Shown here: piece after piece, positions 15,084 to 24,368 of the stretch | How the letters are laid out: each line of letters starts with the position of its first letter | Numbering within the stretch: the stretch's first letter is position 1 | Source of the DNA: Anaerolineaceae bacterium | GTDB taxonomy: Bacteria > Chloroflexota > Anaerolineae > Anaerolineales > UBA11657 | Length of the DNA: 64,000 nt | Reading direction: 5' to 3' | Assembly: GCA_003569365.1 (NCBI GenBank) | Contig: BGOS01000006.1 | Span: forward strand, 186,001-250,000 | Notes under the pieces: model-generated | Seen by the model: the letters and a program-made list of their open reading frames with translations, nothing else | Database searches by the model: none | What the model was told of the DNA's origin: nothing | Translations under genes and position numbers: made by a program

Positions 15084-15154
15084 CAGCGTACCCGGAGCAA
15101 ATTATAAATGTGTCCGCATCTTGTTCAATTCCGGCTGCACAGCTGCCACAAAAT

Positions 15155-15181
15155 AAAACAGCCCCGGTCCGGGGCTGTTTT
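15155..15181. terminator. bidirectional-looking terminator after the ATP synthase genes
   Basis: Perfect palindrome AAAACAGCCCCGG-T-CCGGGGCTGTTTT, with A/T runs on both flanks, lies 20 bases past the stop of the b/delta gene. It ends the nuo-atp block before murE. Confidence 0.88.
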
Positions 15182-15201
15182 AAAAAGAAACCAAACCAAT
15201 G

Positions 15202-15939
15202 CTAGCGCAGGGACTCCTGCAGCTGCGCCAATGTTTGGCGCGCAGAGCCGTTCACCTCGTGGTCTCCCACCCGAATTACAATGCCGCCCAAGATCGACGG
15301 GTCCACCCGAAACGAGACCTTCGCTGAGCCTCCAAGTTTATCGGCCAGCGCCTTCTTGATTTTTTCCTTCTCAGGATCGTTCAAGGTAATCGCACTCGTC
15401 ACAACCGCAGCGGCACCGCTCAAAGCCTCACCCTCGAGGATGGTCACTTTGCCTTCGCGCACCCCGGAGAAGAACGAGTCAATCAACGCATGCTGCCGGG
15501 CATCATCGAGCGCCCCCTGCACAATCCGGCCAGCCGCTGCAATCGCGATCGCAGCAATTTGAGGCCGCAATTCTTCCAAAGCGCCCTGCACCTTGGACTC
15601 AGCCTCGAGATTCGCTGCCGTGAGCAGTTCCTCCCGCTCCTTCTCAGCACCGCGAATTATGTCCGCAGCGCGCTTCTCCGCTTGATAGGTTGCATCCGCA
15701 ACAATCGTTGCGCGCTCAGCGCGTGCCGCAGCCAAGATCTTGGAGGACTCCGCCTCGGTATGCTCGCGCAGCTCTTCCGCCTTGCGTGCGTCTTCCAAAC
15801 TCTTGCTGATCTTCTCGCGCCGCGCTGCCAAAAGCTCCAGCACCGGACCATACACCCAGGCCCGCAACACAACAAACATCACCAGAAAACTGAACATCTG
15901 CACAAGCAGATATCCTAGATTAAGACCTAAAGCTGCCAA
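15202..15939 (-). CDS. atpF: ATP synthase subunit b with C-terminal delta-like (OSCP) domain
   Basis: 245 residues. Residues 1-35 hold one membrane helix (LLVQMFSFLVMFVVL) and residues about 36-155 a charged Ala-rich coiled coil, as in subunit b of the peripheral stalk. The last 90 residues match the C-terminal part of delta/OSCP, including SFRVDPSILGGIVIRVGDHE and a terminal helix. The N-terminal helical bundle of delta, which normally binds subunit alpha, is missing. No separate atpH is nearby. It is last of the atp genes; a terminator follows directly. Confidence 0.88.
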   Translation of the reverse strand: MAALGLNLGYLLVQMFSFLVMFVVLRAWVYGPVLELLAARREKISKSLEDARKAEELREHTEAESSKILAAARAERATIVADATYQAEKRAADIIRGAEKEREELLTAANLEAESKVQGALEELRPQIAAIAIAAAGRIVQGALDDARQHALIDSFFSGVREGKVTILEGEALSGAAAVVTSAITLNDPEKEKIKKALADKLGGSAKVSFRVDPSILGGIVIRVGDHEVNGSARQTLAQLQESLR

Positions 15940-15994
15940 AGCTGCCTCCTAATATATAAACTTACGCCACACCATCACTGCAATCTAGCAAGCG

Positions 15995-16319: not shown

Positions 16320-17333
16320 CTAATCGTGCGCTGCCGCGCCCTCAGGATCAGCATGTTCATCGCCGTGATGGCTGACCACCGCCTGAGACATAAATACCAT
16401 CGTTAGCATTCCAAATACAACTGCCTGAATCAGGCCGACACCAAACTCCAGCATGAGAAAAATTGTCTGTGCGAAAGAGGGCACAAGATACCCAATTACA
16501 AACAGGAGCACCGAGCCGGCAAACACATTGCCAAACAACCGGAAGCTAAACGAAAGAATTTTTGAAAATTCAGAAACCAGCTCAAGCAAACCAACGCCAA
16601 AATCTATCACGCCGAAAATCGGCTTGGTGAACATAGTGGAGGTGTTCCAGAACTTCTTGAAATACCCAACACCCAGCGCCCGAATACCAAACACCTGCAC
16701 CATAAAAACGGCTATCAGCGCAAGAGCCACGGTAAAGTTTAGGTCAGTAGAGTTGACGCGCACAAGAGGCACCAGTTCAAAAAGACCGCCAGCCTCGTTA
16801 TGAGTTGCGGCGCCCACTATCGTTGTTCCCAGAGCAGTCGCCTGCACCGCGAAACCATGCTCAGCCGCATGCAATATCCCAATGCTATCCACGCCCGGAA
16901 TCAACTCAAGCCAGTTGTTCACAAGCACTACAAGCACGATTGTCGCAAACCACGGGAAAATTTCGCGCGCCCAGCGGCCGGCATTGGTCTCAGTCAGGCC
17001 GTAAAGCGCCTCCAGCAGTGCCTCCACTGCGCCCGAAACACCGCCAATGGCACGGCCACCGGCCGCAAGCGCGGCGCGCGCAGCCCGGCTGAAAGAAAAC
17101 GCGAGCACCAGCAGAATCAAATCAGATATCAGCATCGCCGCCATCGTGTTGGTAAATGCGAACCTTCCCAACAGCGGGAGCTGCACTGCGTGCGTCAGTT
17201 CCTCCGCTGGCAACTGAATACGCATCAAAACTGGCGGCATAATTCTATACGCCACCGCCCACCCAATCAGCAGCACCAGCACCAAATAGCGGTTTTTTAT
17301 ACCAAGAATTCTGTTGTCACTTGAAGCCGTCAA
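16320..17333 (-). CDS. atpB: ATP synthase subunit a
   Basis: About 337 residues. It forms the membrane half-channels of Fo. Helices toward the C-terminus carry the conserved Arg/Glu helix region SFSFRLFGNVFAGSVLLFVIG, with the essential Arg in it, and the final helices FGMLTMVFMSQAV. A start at TTG 17333 is favoured: GGAGG lies 9 bases upstream and it overlaps the atpZ stop by 17 bases. An ATG further upstream would overlap atpZ by 77 bases. Confidence 0.93.
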   Translation of the reverse strand: MTASSDNRILGIKNRYLVLVLLIGWAVAYRIMPPVLMRIQLPAEELTHAVQLPLLGRFAFTNTMAAMLISDLILLVLAFSFSRAARAALAAGGRAIGGVSGAVEALLEALYGLTETNAGRWAREIFPWFATIVLVVLVNNWLELIPGVDSIGILHAAEHGFAVQATALGTTIVGAATHNEAGGLFELVPLVRVNSTDLNFTVALALIAVFMVQVFGIRALGVGYFKKFWNTSTMFTKPIFGVIDFGVGLLELVSEFSKILSFSFRLFGNVFAGSVLLFVIGYLVPSFAQTIFLMLEFGVGLIQAVVFGMLTMVFMSQAVVSHHGDEHADPEGAAAHD

Positions 17334-17616
17334 GTCGATCTTCCTCCAAAGTACCTGAATTGCGCGAGGCAACTGCTTGCTGCGCGCGCGCAAAGCTCAT
17401 CGCTAAAAAATACAGCGCCACAATCGTAACCGGAATACTACCAACAAGCATTCCCACCGTCAGCCAAGGACGCGTGCCCAGTACCTGATCCAGCAAGACC
17501 CCGCCACCCAGTGCCCCAGCAATCACGGCGCAGGTTACCAGTGCAATCTGTAAAACTACGCGCAGCATACTGCTGCGGATTGTGCGTGTCCGAGTGCCTC
17601 TGATTCTTGGCGCCAT
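17317..17616 (-). CDS. AtpZ/AtpI-like small membrane protein
   Basis: 99 residues, two membrane helices. The helix-loop-helix with GALGGGVLLDQVLGTRPWLT resembles the AtpZ/ATPase_gene1 family found ahead of atpB. In some bacteria AtpI/AtpZ aid c-ring assembly or cation uptake. It starts 44 bases after nuoN and overlaps atpB, so it links the two complexes' genes. Confidence 0.8.
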   Translation of the reverse strand: MAPRIRGTRTRTIRSSMLRVVLQIALVTCAVIAGALGGGVLLDQVLGTRPWLTVGMLVGSIPVTIVALYFLAMSFARAQQAVASRNSGTLEEDRLDGFK

Positions 17617-17660: not shown

Positions 17661-19112
17661 TCAATAGATGCCTTGCGCCGATTGCAAGGCAAGATCAAAC
17701 CACGGCCCCGCCACCGTGCCGAGCAAAACGATGCCAATGCACAGTACGGCGAGGGCAAAGCTATAAACCCGCGGAACATCGATGGAAGCCGCACCTTCTG
17801 GCGCCGGAAAAACAAAGACCACCTTGAGCACAATTAGATAGTAATAAATACCAATGATTGCATTAAGCACACCGACAATTGCAAGCCAAATAAGCCCCGC
17901 CTTAACCACAGCCGCAAACACAAACATTTTGCCGAAGAATCCGGCCAGCGGAGGAACACCGGCAAGCGAAAGGAAAGCCACAAGCATGGCCAGCGCCAGA
18001 TACGGCGAGCGCCGGCTTAGCCCGGCGTAATCCGCAATTTCATCGGAGCCGGAGACGCGCGCAAAAATTATTACCACCGCAAAGGCTGCCAGATTTGTGA
18101 CAACATAGGTGAGCAGATAAAACACCACCGCCGCCGTCCCCAAATCTGAAACAGTCACCACCGCCATCAGCACATAACCCGCATGGGCAATGGAAGAGTA
18201 CGCCAGCATGCGCTTAATGTTGCGCTGCGCCAGCGCCGCTAGATTGCCAAGCGTCATCGACAAGACAGAGATTGCAGCCAGCAGCGGCAGCAGATAAGCC
18301 GACGCGGGCACTGTAACGCTCATGATCCTAAACAGCACTGCAAACCCAACAGCCTTCGAAGCAGTTGAAATGAATGCAGTCACCGGCGTGGGCGCGCCCT
18401 CATACACATCCGGCGCCCAGAAGTGAAATGGGACTGCCGCCAGTTTGAAGCCAATGCCCGCTAAGAGCAGCATGTTTATCACAAGCAGCGCTGCCGGAGG
18501 CACCTGCCCGTCCCGCACTGCTGCCGCAATTGCAGCAAGGCTGGTCTCGCCGGTGAAGCCGTACAGCAAGCTGAGGCCGTAAACCAGCAATCCGGAAGTT
18601 GCCGCGCCAAACAAGAAATACTTGAGCCCGGCTTCAGCCGTGCGGTCATCGCCGTGCGCAAAGCCCGCAAGCACATAGCCGGCAATGCTGGTGGTCTCCA
18701 GCGCGAGGTAGAGCATGATGATGTCGGCCGACAGCGCCATGAGATTCATGCCCAGGCACGCGCCAATCAACAGAATGAAGTATTCACCGTGGCGGCTGAC
18801 ACCGCGCACGCCACTGCTAAGCAGCGCGGTCATAACTCCAGCAAAAATCACAAGCATGCGAAATACAAACGCAAACAGGTCCGCGCGCAACATCCCGCCA
18901 AACAGAAGCGTCCGGTCACTGCCGGGCTGCGCAAAAACGATTCCAAGCACGCCTGCAGCCGCAATGCCCAAACCAGCATAGATACCAAGCCCGCCCGTGC
19001 GCCGCAGCTGTGGATACGAGACATCCAGTACGGCCAGCACGACCGCCACAACCACCAGTGCAATTTCCGGCAGTAGTACCAGCCAGTCAGCGGGAGTGTA
19101 CGGCGTGATCAT
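17661..19112 (-). CDS. nuoN: NADH dehydrogenase (complex I) subunit N
   Basis: 483 residues, about 14 membrane helices, an antiporter-like proton-pumping subunit. The conserved amphipathic segment FHFWAPDVYEGAPTPVTAFI and LAYSSIAHAGYVL are present. ATG 19112 overlaps the nuoM2 stop by four bases (ATGA). It is the last nuo gene; atpZ begins 44 bases later. Confidence 0.96.
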   Translation of the reverse strand: MITPYTPADWLVLLPEIALVVVAVVLAVLDVSYPQLRRTGGLGIYAGLGIAAAGVLGIVFAQPGSDRTLLFGGMLRADLFAFVFRMLVIFAGVMTALLSSGVRGVSRHGEYFILLIGACLGMNLMALSADIIMLYLALETTSIAGYVLAGFAHGDDRTAEAGLKYFLFGAATSGLLVYGLSLLYGFTGETSLAAIAAAVRDGQVPPAALLVINMLLLAGIGFKLAAVPFHFWAPDVYEGAPTPVTAFISTASKAVGFAVLFRIMSVTVPASAYLLPLLAAISVLSMTLGNLAALAQRNIKRMLAYSSIAHAGYVLMAVVTVSDLGTAAVVFYLLTYVVTNLAAFAVVIIFARVSGSDEIADYAGLSRRSPYLALAMLVAFLSLAGVPPLAGFFGKMFVFAAVVKAGLIWLAIVGVLNAIIGIYYYLIVLKVVFVFPAPEGAASIDVPRVYSFALAVLCIGIVLLGTVAGPWFDLALQSAQGIY

Positions 19113-20623
19113 CCTGCAGCGCCCTGCAGGATCGCCATCACATTTGCTGCGCCGCTGGCAACGAGGGGCGCCATCCACGCCGGGTACCACCCAAGTGCCA
19201 GCAACACGCTCACCAGCACCCCGAGCGCCACCTTGTCCATAATGGTTACATCGCCCACATGATGCTCAAACTCCGCCGGCAGCTTGGTGAAAAATACCTG
19301 ATGCACTGCACGCAAGATGTAAGCTGCGGTAATCGCTATCGCAATCACCGCCACAAGGTCAATCCAAGAGTATTGCTGGCCCAAATAATACTGGCTGGTA
19401 GTTTGCCCGGCTGCCCACACACCCATGAAAATTGGCTGTTCCGCAATAAAACCGGAAAAACCCGGCATGCCCATGGACACAAGTCCGCCGATGATGAAAG
19501 CCACCGCCACCATTGGCATCTTGGCGCCAAATCCGCCCAGCGAGGGGATGTCGCGCGTATGCGCCTGGTCGTACATCATTCCGACACACGCAAAGAAAAG
19601 AGCCGTCATGGCGCCGTGCGAAAACATTTGCAGGCCGGCACCCGTTATGCCGATGGGCGTTAGCGATGCAACGCCCATCGTTACGAGGCCCATGTGCGAA
19701 ACAGACGAGAAGCCAATCACATACTTAAGGTCGCGCTGCATCATGGCCACAAATGAACCATAGACGATATTGATGAGCGCCAGGAAGACAATCCAAGGCA
19801 TCCAGTAGTGCGCTCCAGCGGGCAGCAGCATCACGCCCACGCGCAGCGCCGCAAAGGCGCCCAGCTTCATCAGCACACCGGCATGAAACATCGAAACGGC
19901 AGTCGGCGCTGCCACGTGTCCATCCGGGCTCCAGTTGTGGAACGGGAAAATACCAGCCAGCACAGCGAAGCCAAAGAAAATAAATGGAAACCAGAAGCGC
20001 TGGAAATCGGCCGGAAAATTCGCATTTTGAAGCGCCAGCATATCAAACGTATTCAAACCAGCCGCAAAATACATTGCCAGCGCACCAACCACCGCCAGCA
20101 CCGAGCCAATGAACAAATAAAGCGTGAGCTTCATCGCAGCGTATTCGCGCGTCACCTTCCAGCCCCAGATAGCAATCAGCAAGTACATCGGAAAGACTGC
20201 GATTTCGTAAAAGAAAAACAGGTGGAACAGGTCCAGCGCAACAAACACGCCGAATACACCGGTGGCAAGCAGAAAAAGAAACGCGAAGAACTCGCGCGGG
20301 CGGTCATCAATCTTCCAAGAAATCAATACGCCAGTGAAGATCACAATTCCGGTAAGCAGCACCATCGGCAAACTCAGTCCATCCACGCCAACGTAATACG
20401 AGATGCCAAGCGCCGGCACCCAGTTCAGGCGCTCAACAAATTGGTAGCCCGCCAGCGAAATGTCATAACTGAAGTACGCCCAGATTGACAAGAAGAGTGT
20501 GAGCGTTGCGCCAGCCAAAGCCGCGATGCGAATCTCCGTATGGCGGTCCGCCGGAAACAGCAGCAGCAGCATACCCACCGTCACCGGCGTAAAAGTAATC
20601 GCAGAGAGCAGCGGAAACGACAT
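19109..20623 (-). CDS. nuoM: NADH dehydrogenase (complex I) subunit M, second copy
   Basis: 504 residues, a Mrp-antiporter-like membrane subunit. Compared with the upstream copy its signature segment diverges: FHNWSPDGHVAAPTAVSMF in place of HTWLPDAHTEAPTAGSM, so a Glu usually kept there is Ala. The helix segments MYLLIAIWGWK and RDLKYVIGFSSVSHMG are preserved. ATG 20623 follows the upstream nuoM stop by 4 bases. The second copy presumably sits as an extra pump module in the membrane arm (inference). Confidence 0.93.
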   Translation of the reverse strand: MSFPLLSAITFTPVTVGMLLLLFPADRHTEIRIAALAGATLTLFLSIWAYFSYDISLAGYQFVERLNWVPALGISYYVGVDGLSLPMVLLTGIVIFTGVLISWKIDDRPREFFAFLFLLATGVFGVFVALDLFHLFFFYEIAVFPMYLLIAIWGWKVTREYAAMKLTLYLFIGSVLAVVGALAMYFAAGLNTFDMLALQNANFPADFQRFWFPFIFFGFAVLAGIFPFHNWSPDGHVAAPTAVSMFHAGVLMKLGAFAALRVGVMLLPAGAHYWMPWIVFLALINIVYGSFVAMMQRDLKYVIGFSSVSHMGLVTMGVASLTPIGITGAGLQMFSHGAMTALFFACVGMMYDQAHTRDIPSLGGFGAKMPMVAVAFIIGGLVSMGMPGFSGFIAEQPIFMGVWAAGQTTSQYYLGQQYSWIDLVAVIAIAITAAYILRAVHQVFFTKLPAEFEHHVGDVTIMDKVALGVLVSVLLALGWYPAWMAPLVASGAANVMAILQGAAG

Positions 20624-20627
20624 CTGG

Positions 20628-22205
20628 TTAACCAACGAGGCGCAGAACGGTCTGATTGATCATGGTTAGCAGCCAGGCCGGCCAGATGCCGGCCAGCAGT
20701 ATAAGCACCATCAGCGGCGCAACAATCAACACCTCGCGCAAACTAATTTCCATCGGGTGATGAGACCATTTTTCATTGCGCGGCCCATGCAAAACCTGCT
20801 GCACGCCCTTGAGAATGTAAGCGCCAGTAAAGAACAAGCCCAGCATGCTGACAGCTGTAGCCAGCGTGAAGACCGGCCATGCGCCGCGCACAATTGCAAA
20901 CTCCGCCACAAATCCGCCCAGCCCGGGCAGCCCCAAAGAGGCCATGCTGCTAAAAATGAGAATGCCGCCATACACCGGGGCAAGCTGCCAGATGCCGCCG
21001 CCCAGTTCATCCAGATCGCGCGTATGAGCGCGCTCATAAACTACACCCACCAGGAAGAACATGGCCGCAGCCGACAAGCCGTGGTTGAACATTTGCAGCA
21101 CAGCGCCGTTGGCAGCGATGGTGGCGCTCATGCGAATGGCCGGGTCAGACACCTGTGCGGCCCAAGCCGCCACAGCAATGCCCAGCACCACGAAGCCCAT
21201 ATGATTGACCGAAGAGTACGCAACCAGGCGCTTGAAATCTGTCTGGCCATATGCCGCCATTGCGCCGAGCACAATCGAGAGTGCGGCAAGCGTAGCCAAA
21301 AGCGGTGACGCAGCAGCCGCCTCCGCTGGAAACAGCGGCAGCACCAGGCGCAAAAATCCGTATGCACCAAGCTTGAGCAGCACGCCCGCCAAAATCATTG
21401 AGCCGGCCGTGGGCGCCTCAGTATGCGCGTCCGGCAGCCAGGTGTGGAACGGCCAAAGTGGAACCTTGATTGCAAAAGCAATCGTGAAGGTCCAAAATGC
21501 AGCAGTTTTCACGGCTCCCATCGAGATGCCGTCAAACACATCCTGGTTGAAAGATGGCCACTGCGCAATCAGCTCCGGCAGGTCAAAAGTGCCCAGCGTC
21601 TGCGCAATCACTTGAATTGCCATCAACAAGCCAAGCGAGCCAGCCAGCGTATACACAAAAAATTTGAATGATGCGTATTGGCGCGCCGGCACTTTCCGCC
21701 CGCCACCCAGATCCCGCTCGCCACTTGGGCTGCCCCAAAGGCTGATCAGGAAATACATGGGCACGAGGCCAACCTCATAAAACAAAAAGAACAGCAGCAA
21801 ATCAAGCGAGACAAAAACGCCGAGCATGCCAACTTCAAGCGCCAGATACAGCACCATGAAAGCCTTGACCCGCTCGTCAATCTTAAAGGACGCCAAAATA
21901 CCGAGCGGCACCAGCAATGCAGTGAGCAGCAGCATGGGCACACTGATTCCATCCACGCCAACGTGATACGAGGAGTGCACAGCGCTGTACCACTCCGCAC
22001 GCTGCTCAAACTGGAAGCCAGGGACTGCCGGGTCGTAGGCTGACCACATCACAACTGTGAACGCCAGCGGCACAAGGCTGCCCAGCAGCGCAGCCCAGCG
22101 GATGGCGCTGTGCATGCTGCTGGGAATTAGCAGCAGGATCAGAATCACCGCCACGGGCGAGAACAAAATCAGGCTCAGAAGATTCTGGTAAATAAAAGTA
22201 GCCAT
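20628..22205 (-). CDS. nuoM: NADH dehydrogenase (complex I) subunit M, first copy
   Basis: 525 residues, about 14 membrane helices. It has the canonical NuoM signature PFHTWLPDAHTEAPTAGSM with the conserved Lys/Glu of an antiporter-like subunit, and DFKRLVAYSSVNHMGFV. A short insertion of Gly/charged residues (SPSGERDLGGGRKVPARQ) lies in a cytosolic or periplasmic loop. It begins 6 bases after the nuoL stop. The tandem pair suggests duplication. Confidence 0.95.
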   Translation of the reverse strand: MATFIYQNLLSLILFSPVAVILILLLIPSSMHSAIRWAALLGSLVPLAFTVVMWSAYDPAVPGFQFEQRAEWYSAVHSSYHVGVDGISVPMLLLTALLVPLGILASFKIDERVKAFMVLYLALEVGMLGVFVSLDLLLFFLFYEVGLVPMYFLISLWGSPSGERDLGGGRKVPARQYASFKFFVYTLAGSLGLLMAIQVIAQTLGTFDLPELIAQWPSFNQDVFDGISMGAVKTAAFWTFTIAFAIKVPLWPFHTWLPDAHTEAPTAGSMILAGVLLKLGAYGFLRLVLPLFPAEAAAASPLLATLAALSIVLGAMAAYGQTDFKRLVAYSSVNHMGFVVLGIAVAAWAAQVSDPAIRMSATIAANGAVLQMFNHGLSAAAMFFLVGVVYERAHTRDLDELGGGIWQLAPVYGGILIFSSMASLGLPGLGGFVAEFAIVRGAWPVFTLATAVSMLGLFFTGAYILKGVQQVLHGPRNEKWSHHPMEISLREVLIVAPLMVLILLAGIWPAWLLTMINQTVLRLVG

Positions 22206-22211
22206 GAAAGT

Positions 22212-24368
22212 CTAGCGGGCTGCTATCAATAGGGTTGCGGTCATGGCCAGCACCGCTACCACCACGCCCAGCAAGTACGTTTGCACCTGCCCGGTTTGCA
22301 CAAAACGCGAGCCATTGCCTGTCGCTTGCACCCCATCCGCCAGCTGATCCGGAACGTAGTTCACGCCCCATTTTTCAAACAGCACCGTGCCACTGCCAAT
22401 GCCCATCATCAGGCGCGCCAGCGAATGCAGCAGGCCGTCAATGATGCCACGGTCCAGAATGCGGGAAACGAAAACCGACGAGATCCATTTGGCCGGCACA
22501 ACAAACGCAGCCTGGTAAAACTCGTCCAGATAATATTTATTGCCGAGCAGCGTGTGCACCGGGCCAAGCGCAGCCTGCACGGGATCGGCAGCGCCCGCAG
22601 CCAGCGGACGGCGGCCATAAATCAGCCAGCCCGCCAGCAGCCCGCCCAAGCCCACCAGCACAGAGAGCATTACCGGAGTCCAGCTGAAGCTAAAGCCCTC
22701 CAGCTCAGCCGGCAAAGCTCCCATCAAAAAGTGCTCGAATGGATTCGAGCCGAGGAGATGGCCAAGCACTGGGAACTCGTGATGCACGCCAACGTAGCCG
22801 GCCGTGACCGCAAAGAACGCCAGAATCACAAGCGGCAGCGTCATTGTCCACGCACTCTCATGCGCATGCGCTGCACTCTCCGTGCGCGGCGCACCCCAAA
22901 AAGTCATTGCAATCTGCCGCATGGTGTAGAAAGCTGTGAGGAAGGCCGCCAGCAGCAACACCACAAGCACGGTAGTGTGGCCATGCGCCAGCGCATCCGC
23001 AAGGATTTCATCCTTGGACCAGAAGCCCGCCGTTACAAACGGAAAGCCCGCCAGCGACAAGCCGCCGATTAGAAACGTCAGGTGGGTTACCGGCATGCGT
23101 GCGGCCAGCCCGCCCATATTGCGCATGTCCTGCGGATCGATGTGCTCATGCGAGTGATGCGCACCGTGTTCCATGCCGTGAATGATGGAGCCGGATCCCA
23201 AGAACAGCAGTGCCTTGAAGAAAGCATGCGTCATCAAATGAAACGCTGCCGCAACGTAAGCACCGATGCCGAGTGCGGTAATCATGAAGCCCAGCTGGCT
23301 GATTGTGGAATACGCCAGCACTTTCTTCACGTCGTTCTGGGCAACTGCAATCGTTGCAGCAAAAAGTGCAGTGAAGGAACCAACCACCGTCATTATGGCC
23401 AGCACCGGGCTGCCACCGTGCCCGGCTCCGGCTGCAAGCAACGGGAAGACCCGGATGACCATGTAAACGCCGGCCGACACCATTGCAGCCGCATGAATCA
23501 TTGCACTCACAGGCGTCGGGCCTTCCATTGCATCCGGCAGCCATGTGTGCAGCGGAAATTGCGCGCTCTTGCCGACTGTGCCGGCAAAAATCAGCAGGCC
23601 GATCATATGCGCTGCGGCCAGCCCGCTAATGTAAGACGGAGTAGCAACCAGCTTCTCCATCAATTCCGGATTGAAGAAAATTTCGCGGAAGTTAAGCGTG
23701 CCGGTTTCTGAATATAGATACGCAATGCCGAGCAGCATGACCACGTCCGCCAAACGCGTAGTGAGGAATGCCTTAACCGCTGCCTGGCGCGGTGTGGTCT
23801 GGTGCGGGTCTGCATAATTGCGCCCGTGCCAAAACCCGATCAGCAGGTATGAGCAGAGCCCCATGATTTCCCAGCCGAAGAAAAGCAGCAGCAGATTGTC
23901 TGCCACCACCAGCAGCAGCATTGCGCCGGCAAACAGGGAGAGAAAGGCGAAGAAGCGCGTATACATAGGCTCCACGCCGTTATGTGGCGGGCTGCCCACC
24001 TCGTCGTGCGCATCCAGCGTCTTGCCAAAATTGGAATAACCGACGCTATAGAGGATGATCAGGGCACACGCCAGCGGCACAAAGAAGAGCATCACAACTG
24101 TAAGCGGATCCACCGCGACGCCCATGCGCAATGCCGTACTGCCGGTCGGCAGCCAGTCAACGCTGGCAGCCAGCGGATGGTCCGCAAAGTGCGGCGTGCC
24201 AAGCGCGCCAAACACCACCGACCAGCCAAGCACCAAAGAGATTCCAGCCGCTACGAGCGCCACCGTGTGGCTCAGCCAGCGGCTGCGGAATGTGAACAGC
24301 AGTATCACCGCCGCGGAAAGCAGCGGGGGAACCGGAATCAGCCAGACTGCAAGGGTGCTTGCGTTCAT
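22212..24368 (-). CDS. nuoL: NADH dehydrogenase (complex I) subunit L
   Basis: 718 residues, clearly longer than the about 613 of E. coli. The distal antiporter-like pump subunit with HTWLPDAMEGPTPVSAMIHA, KKVLAYSTISQLGFM and a long C-terminal part expected to form the lateral helix and last membrane helix. A His-rich loop (HGAHHSHEHID) lies near residue 400. The extra length may serve the larger membrane arm implied by two NuoM copies (inference). It overlaps no neighbour; nuoK ends 4 bases upstream. Confidence 0.95.
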   Translation of the reverse strand: MNASTLAVWLIPVPPLLSAAVILLFTFRSRWLSHTVALVAAGISLVLGWSVVFGALGTPHFADHPLAASVDWLPTGSTALRMGVAVDPLTVVMLFFVPLACALIILYSVGYSNFGKTLDAHDEVGSPPHNGVEPMYTRFFAFLSLFAGAMLLLVVADNLLLLFFGWEIMGLCSYLLIGFWHGRNYADPHQTTPRQAAVKAFLTTRLADVVMLLGIAYLYSETGTLNFREIFFNPELMEKLVATPSYISGLAAAHMIGLLIFAGTVGKSAQFPLHTWLPDAMEGPTPVSAMIHAAAMVSAGVYMVIRVFPLLAAGAGHGGSPVLAIMTVVGSFTALFAATIAVAQNDVKKVLAYSTISQLGFMITALGIGAYVAAAFHLMTHAFFKALLFLGSGSIIHGMEHGAHHSHEHIDPQDMRNMGGLAARMPVTHLTFLIGGLSLAGFPFVTAGFWSKDEILADALAHGHTTVLVVLLLAAFLTAFYTMRQIAMTFWGAPRTESAAHAHESAWTMTLPLVILAFFAVTAGYVGVHHEFPVLGHLLGSNPFEHFLMGALPAELEGFSFSWTPVMLSVLVGLGGLLAGWLIYGRRPLAAGAADPVQAALGPVHTLLGNKYYLDEFYQAAFVVPAKWISSVFVSRILDRGIIDGLLHSLARLMMGIGSGTVLFEKWGVNYVPDQLADGVQATGNGSRFVQTGQVQTYLLGVVVAVLAMTATLLIAAR

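Follow-up and report, generated by a model that had tools for sequence, protein, structure and literature searches.

The 64,000-nucleotide stretch of DNA analysed here (hereafter the window; positions 186,001 to 250,000 of contig BGOS01000006.1 in the Anaerolineaceae bacterium assembly GCA_003569365.1) contains the genes for subunits a and c of an ATP synthase and, behind them, a gene whose product joins a complete b subunit to the C-terminal domain (CTD) of the delta/OSCP subunit (Table 1). The real open reading frame of this b-delta gene is that of the minus strand, the plus strand over the same positions being interrupted by internal stops. As proposed in an earlier note made from the sequence alone, according to which the protein combines a b-type membrane helix and coiled coil with only the C-terminal half of delta/OSCP, the Pfam family ATP-synt_B matched residues 11-140 (63.6 bits) and OSCP matched residues 176-244 (60.6 bits), the latter only through positions 103-172 of the 172 in its profile. 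TIGR01144 matched residues 14-157, and residues 1-158 of the b chains in the PDB structures of the Chloroflexus aurantiacus enzyme (about 158 residues) align with residues 1-158 of the window protein. Because b aligns over these approximately 158 residues, it is not shortened, and there is no space for the delta N-terminal domain (NTD). The AlphaFold model consists of helices at residues 8-139 and 146-158 followed by an E-H-E-E-E-H fold (E, strand; H, helix), and its residues 174-245 superpose on the delta/OSCP CTDs of E. coli, bovine, human and C. aurantiacus enzymes at 1.3-1.8 Å over 70-72 residues. Homologues and superposition thus agree that the C-terminal part is OSCP-like, one of the two points on which the earlier note had let its reading stand or fall.

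Table 1. The b-delta gene, the parts of its product and the neighbouring features (window positions)
Feature	Position	Strand	Basis
b-delta(CTD) fusion, 245 residues, TTG start	15202..15939	(-)	open reading frame, Pfam, TIGRFAM, homologues
b part, complete (residues 1-158: membrane helix, coiled coil, b C-terminal end)	15466..15939	(-)	Pfam, TIGR01144, PDB alignment, predicted helices
linker, residues 159-173, low model confidence	15421..15465	(-)	AlphaFold model, alignment
delta/OSCP CTD, residues 174-245	15205..15420	(-)	Pfam, homologues, superposition
AGGAGG, Shine-Dalgarno-like, 5 bases upstream of the TTG start	15945..15950	(-)	read from sequence
intrinsic terminator, hairpin with 13-bp stem, directly 3' of b-delta	15154..15182	(-)	
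atpE, subunit c, 80 residues	15995..16237	(-)	Pfam
atpB, subunit a, 357 residues, extended	16320..17393	(-)	Pfam; top PDB match C. aurantiacus a
ATPase_gene1 (AtpZ/AtpI-like) small protein	17317..17616	(-)	weak Pfam match, below cut-off
nuoL, nuoM, second nuoM-like gene, nuoN (complex I), upstream, same direction	17661..24368	(-)	named from sequence

The genome to which the window belongs (2.63 Mb in 30 contigs) was searched for other stalk genes. OSCP matched the b-delta gene alone at E ≤10, and ATP-synt_B gave no second gene above the cut-off; together with the NTD-profile search described below, which found no separate delta NTD, these searches uphold the claim that the N-terminal bundle of delta is missing, and neither a full atpH nor a second atpF was detected. 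The alpha, gamma, beta and epsilon genes are clustered on the same contig (C6:72.9-77.4 kb), about 124 kb from the b-delta gene (at about 201 kb), and are flanked by genes that were named from their sequence as a sigma factor and mreB-like. The remaining PF00006 matches of the genome are, by sequence and context, FliI of a flagellar cluster and Rho, so that there was no sign of another rotary ATP synthase.

To place this architecture, 150 Anaerolineae genomes, including that of the window, were sampled, and an OSCP match was obtained in 143 of them. The delta NTD is regarded as the cap by which the stator is held to F1. In 75 of these 143 genomes the OSCP matches were only short or weak (best match ≤75 bits), separated by a gap from the other 68, whose best matches (≥94 bits) span most of the profile. 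Judged by these matches, the short-delta architecture is common to many Anaerolineae. Among the loci that were mapped, 25 are of the window type, with a-c-b(delta) and no adjoining F1 genes (the window is included, and two of the 25 are on the same contig), and nuoN lies directly upstream in 22 of them; in 10 the delta CTD is a separate gene of 84-125 residues (167 in L082), set in nine cases in an otherwise canonical a-c-b-delta-alpha-gamma-beta-epsilon cluster; and another 10 are N-like (beta-epsilon-..-a-c-b(delta)-alpha-gamma), some of them cut by a contig end, which also left locus L012 uncounted. These proportions are not frequencies, because the mapped loci were picked for diversity. 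The named relatives are metagenome assemblies of Anaerolineales and other Chloroflexi. In two loci (L080:9887-10141 and L081:9897-10151) a separate 84-residue delta, CTD only, overlaps the end of b and is followed by alpha. One genome (G262) has two very similar a-c-b(delta) copies on separate contigs (L106 on C13 and L107 on C14), which may reflect duplication or strain mixture.

To check whether the NTD is encoded elsewhere, a profile of delta residues 1-105 (A1) was built from 17 complete delta sequences of Chloroflexota and applied to 59 Anaerolineae genomes, 32 of them belonging to the 75 with short or weak delta. All 27 full-delta genomes were matched (E ≤1e-21). This positive control is partly circular, since these same genomes supplied 15 of the 17 rows in the profile, but the 12 genomes absent from the profile were still matched, at 1e-21 to 2e-32. 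In contrast, no match in the 32 short-delta genomes went below E 0.017, and the top two of these weak matches fall inside frames of 827 and 1201 residues located elsewhere. Some hidden Markov model alignments of the fused proteins do reach delta positions 5-60; as none of these alignments was borne out by the NTD profile in the 32 genomes with short delta, they were taken as matches to the coiled coil. A textbook F-type delta has both NTD and CTD, whereas the window enzyme retains only the part matched by OSCP positions 103-172, and on this basis it is to be filed as a variant of the F-type rather than as a textbook F-type enzyme.

In the rest of the Chloroflexota, strong OSCP matches were found in most of the sampled genomes. 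Twenty genomes outside the class were picked, nearly all for their weak OSCP matches, and in these 12 deltas aligned from OSCP position 37-71 on and two from 103-105 on. The NTD profile gave no match in G034, G043, G070 and G150, nor in G011, G042 and G205; it is, however, less sensitive outside the class, as it missed G042 and G205 even though their OSCP alignments begin at position 2-3. The deltas of G034, G043, G070 and G150 align from 69-71 and have frames of 125-141 residues, and these 125-141-residue deltas (L203, L210, L211 and L212; families f65 and f36) mark a second region of NTD erosion. A literature search that covered few of the subscription journals found no paper on the b-delta arrangement in Anaerolineae.

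How F1 could be held without the NTD is suggested by the N-terminal helix of alpha. Four hydrophobic positions of this helix are kept in all 12 window-type alphas examined and also in all 15 alphas from full-delta Anaerolineae. In E. coli, the three alpha N-terminal helices all contact the stalk, according to PMC5214741; in PS3, one alpha meets the C-terminal region of delta and two meet its N-terminal region, according to PMC12229609. Because the helix pattern is kept, a partner for the alpha helix probably persists, and the delta CTD is the sole candidate in sight. A large hydrophobic residue stands at the third helix position in only three of nine N-like alphas. Seven N-like alphas (L085, L088, L091, L092, L094, L111 and L119) bear N-terminal extensions, as predicted from the start codons as called, with about 58-103 residues before the conserved VG motif versus about 25, and have lost the amphipathic pattern.

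As the sequence shows, the delta NTD, which sits atop F1 in textbook enzymes, has been lost, and the CTD is fused to the end of b. Since there is a single b gene, the stalk should be a homodimer with two CTDs instead of one. We propose that one CTD most likely binds the amphipathic helix at the N-terminus of one alpha, while its partner packs against another part of the stalk or crown; alpha would in this way be tied to subunit a without an N-terminal cap. Such a division of labour is known from FliH, whose two CTDs bind FliI differently, one of them on the FliI N-terminal helix (PMC9114704). The FliH/SctL-type combination of coiled coil and delta-like CTD in one chain is present in b-delta, the profile of the window type aligns collinearly with the A/V-type E subunit (residues 65-242, E 1.3e-10), and FliH was recovered as a structural match (Z 6.6). 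Taken together, we consider it quite probable that the b-delta gene supplies the entire peripheral stalk of the only rotary ATP synthase detected in this cell and that this stalk is a FliH-like homodimer without the delta NTD, which is the best explanation of the data. A FliH-like gene of the same genome, named from sequence and context and located beside fliI in the flagellar cluster (L015:5895-6836), offers an internal comparison for b-delta.

Several observations weigh against this explanation. The AlphaFold model is weak in the CTD (predicted local distance difference test (pLDDT) score about 53-67; predicted template modelling score 0.28), and a prediction of the CTD by itself, made with 54 sequences, was worse (mean pLDDT 52.7), so that the assignment of the CTD relies mainly on sequence. 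The FliH Z score of 6.6 lies in the range of a possible common arrangement. In addition, according to PMC12229609, the engineers of an NTD-less enzyme feared instability and tied the CTD to alpha, so that attachment through b only may not be sufficient. Finally, at 95.5% completeness of the genome the absence of a gene is not fully secure, yet the same absence recurs in 31 other short-delta genomes. It might also be that an unrelated or highly diverged protein from elsewhere supplies the NTD function: the conserved alpha helix needs a partner, and extreme divergence could escape profiles, as the deltas of G042 and G205 did. Against this stand the failure of the NTD profile in every short-delta genome searched, the lack of anything more for OSCP in the window genome, the mini-delta genes, which abut or overlap b and mostly adjoin alpha, leaving no space for another gene there, and the sigma factor and mreB-like flanks of the F1 genes; we regard such a substitute as unlikely. 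Somewhat less likely still is the coexistence of the fused protein with free CTD or free b, produced by an internal start or by cleavage of the linker, which would restore the b2-delta ratio. The model is least ordered in the linker, and the unfused mini-delta relatives have b and delta CTD as separate chains, but the linker is conserved in many window-type relatives as a G-K-V-V-V-L/V-E-like stretch, and no cleavage or start site was found there, although none was specifically sought. As for an assembly or annotation artefact, the assembly does comprise 30 contigs and the relatives are themselves metagenome assemblies. A frameshift or misassembly is nonetheless ruled out for all practical purposes by a collinear homologue from another metagenome assembly (L008; 93-94% identity) and by the same architecture in the 25 window-type loci (two on one contig and one 94% identical), and the gene is framed by a Shine-Dalgarno-like site and a terminator.

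The remaining alternative is that the window holds the F0 half of an N-type ATPase, a group whose members lack delta or carry it fused to b. Short b-delta fusions have already been described for N-type ATPases, whose gene order is beta-epsilon-X-X-a-c-b(delta)-alpha-gamma (ProAD, PMC11738941). The window genome likewise has no delta other than that fused with b, and TIGR03321 (alternate F0 subunit b) spans residues 12-243 of the fusion. However, TIGR03321 scored only 87.6 bits, compared with a cut-off of 224.7, and alpha and beta missed the N-type cut-offs (TIGR03324, 591 versus 750.5; TIGR03305, 586 versus 752) while exceeding those of the canonical models (TIGR00962, 740 bits, cut-off 484; TIGR01039, 777 bits, cut-off 463); gamma also scored 270 bits with canonical TIGR01146 (cut-off 194) versus 79 with the N-type model. 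The gene order differs as well, with nuo-a-c-b(delta)-terminator at one site and alpha-gamma-beta-epsilon at another. In an alpha tree of 59 rows, the window type is placed with the canonical alphas of Anaerolineae and separated from both the N-like group and an N-type alpha (branch support 99/97), and grouping the window type with the N-like sequences was rejected by the approximately unbiased (AU) test (p-AU 0.012). The a+c tree (38 rows) separates the two with a 100/100 split and also rejects their joint clade (p-AU 0.010). Models, gene order and trees thus speak against N-type membership, which we consider very improbable. In the tree of the delta CTD (83 columns) a joint clade of both fusions was not rejected (p-AU 0.31), so that the fused delta domain alone may have a shared origin.

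With regard to the origin of the fusion, the delta domains of the window-type fusions are united in one clade (20 rows, support 100/98), and a single origin of the window-type fusion was not rejected in the alpha tree (p-AU 0.26); the fusion appears to have arisen once. A single NTD loss shared by the mini-delta and window-type enzymes was disfavoured (p-AU 0.030). Separate short deltas are scattered over the alpha tree, whose starred branches require the mini-delta label to change at least six times, and L105, which is unfused, groups with the fused loci in both the alpha and the a+c trees. Because living relatives show separate short deltas, we infer that NTD loss came first and fusion later: a canonical delta would have lost its NTD, leaving a small separate gene, which would then have been fused to b while the F0 and F1 operons separated. 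One alpha (L014:7699-9354) has an insertion of about 45 residues after residue ~308, before the motif GGSLTALP. Similar lengths are found in most window-type alphas, though not in all, and in the full-delta locus L135.

The a, c and b-delta genes form the end of a complex I operon, in the order nuoL-M-M-N-a-c-b(delta) and then the terminator. In the window, as in window-type loci, nuoL and nuoN are separated by two nuoM-like genes (19109-22205), which gives this complex I four antiporter-like subunits. A "2M" complex I with extra proton pumping has reportedly been published, and the nuo set of the window resembles it. Subunit c keeps the ES...Y of what we take to be the ligand positions of Na+ sites, but carries Ile in place of the Gln of Na+ rings, and on this account H+ is probably the ion used rather than Na+. 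A plasmid search gave no match.

The loss of the NTD also raised a question about the number of stalks. According to PMC12229609, the delta NTD, positioned on the three-fold axis, restricts the enzyme to one stalk, whereas an engineered PS3 enzyme without NTD, in which the CTD was fused to alpha, carried up to three stalks and raised the H+/ATP ratio from 3.0 to 5.8. In its text, neither "Chloroflex" nor "Anaerolin" occurs. Among the C. aurantiacus structures (PDB 9itj series), 6 entries contain 18 alpha and 12 delta chains, and 18 entries contain 36 a, 72 b and 180 c chains. For every 3 alpha this makes 2 a, 4 b, 2 delta and 10 c, and these chain counts point to an enzyme with two stalks. The delta of this species is a separate protein of 157 residues, which the NTD profile matches only weakly, at residues 41-86. 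The a subunit of C. aurantiacus is also the best PDB match of the window a subunit (E 1e-41; next, 1e-12). An extended a was rejected as a mark of multi-stalk enzymes, because full-delta Anaerolineae have the same extension and it is thus no evidence for additional stalks. As far as its sequence tells, the window enzyme does have the permissive change for several stalks, i.e. the loss of the delta NTD. We suggest, as a tentative possibility with the odds somewhat against it, that NTD loss in the Anaerolineae gave rise to natural multi-stalk synthases, that of the window included, in which one F1 would be served by two or three stalks, each a b-delta homodimer paired with an a subunit of its own. 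If so, the H+/ATP ratio would be high and ATP would be made at low proton-motive force, and fusion to b would be a natural alternative to the engineered fusion to alpha. The putative multi-stalk enzyme is encoded together with a complex I that bears an extra NuoM-like subunit.

These natural enzymes open to test how F1 is held without a cap and what becomes of stalk number and H+/ATP after its loss. It has been proposed (PMC5706428) that b and delta arose by the splitting of a longer ancestral stalk protein, and the window-type fusion is an example running in the opposite direction.

Among known systems, FliH/SctL and the A/V-type E subunit resemble the window protein in having a coiled coil followed by a delta-like CTD in one chain, FliH being a homodimer, but they belong to other ATPase complexes and are not known to have a b-type membrane helix. 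The mycobacterial b-delta proteins, which belong to F-type enzymes, likewise unite b with delta in a single chain; they are, as had been claimed, much longer (445-448 residues in 7jg5_d and 9vkp_d, versus 245), and their structures contain another b chain besides. They keep the whole delta, NTD and CTD, whereas the window protein has the CTD only. N-type enzymes share with the window a short b fused to the C-terminal part of delta and the lack of a separate delta, but they have an N-type F1 and their own operon order and are usually a second enzyme, while the window has a canonical F1 and a nuo-linked F0, with no other enzyme seen. N-type b-delta fusions being already known, the window protein stands out as an NTD-less b-delta(CTD) stalk in a canonical F-type setting, a setting found for all 12 window-type alphas of the tree. 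C. aurantiacus, of the same phylum, has an extended a and a close delta CTD, and differs in that its delta is a separate chain with a partly recognisable NTD. In the engineered PS3 delta-deltaN-alpha enzyme and in the natural delta-alpha fusion of Acidaminococcus fermentans (both from PMC12229609), the NTD is missing and the CTD is kept and fused, as in the window; there, however, the fusion is to alpha, and here it is to b.
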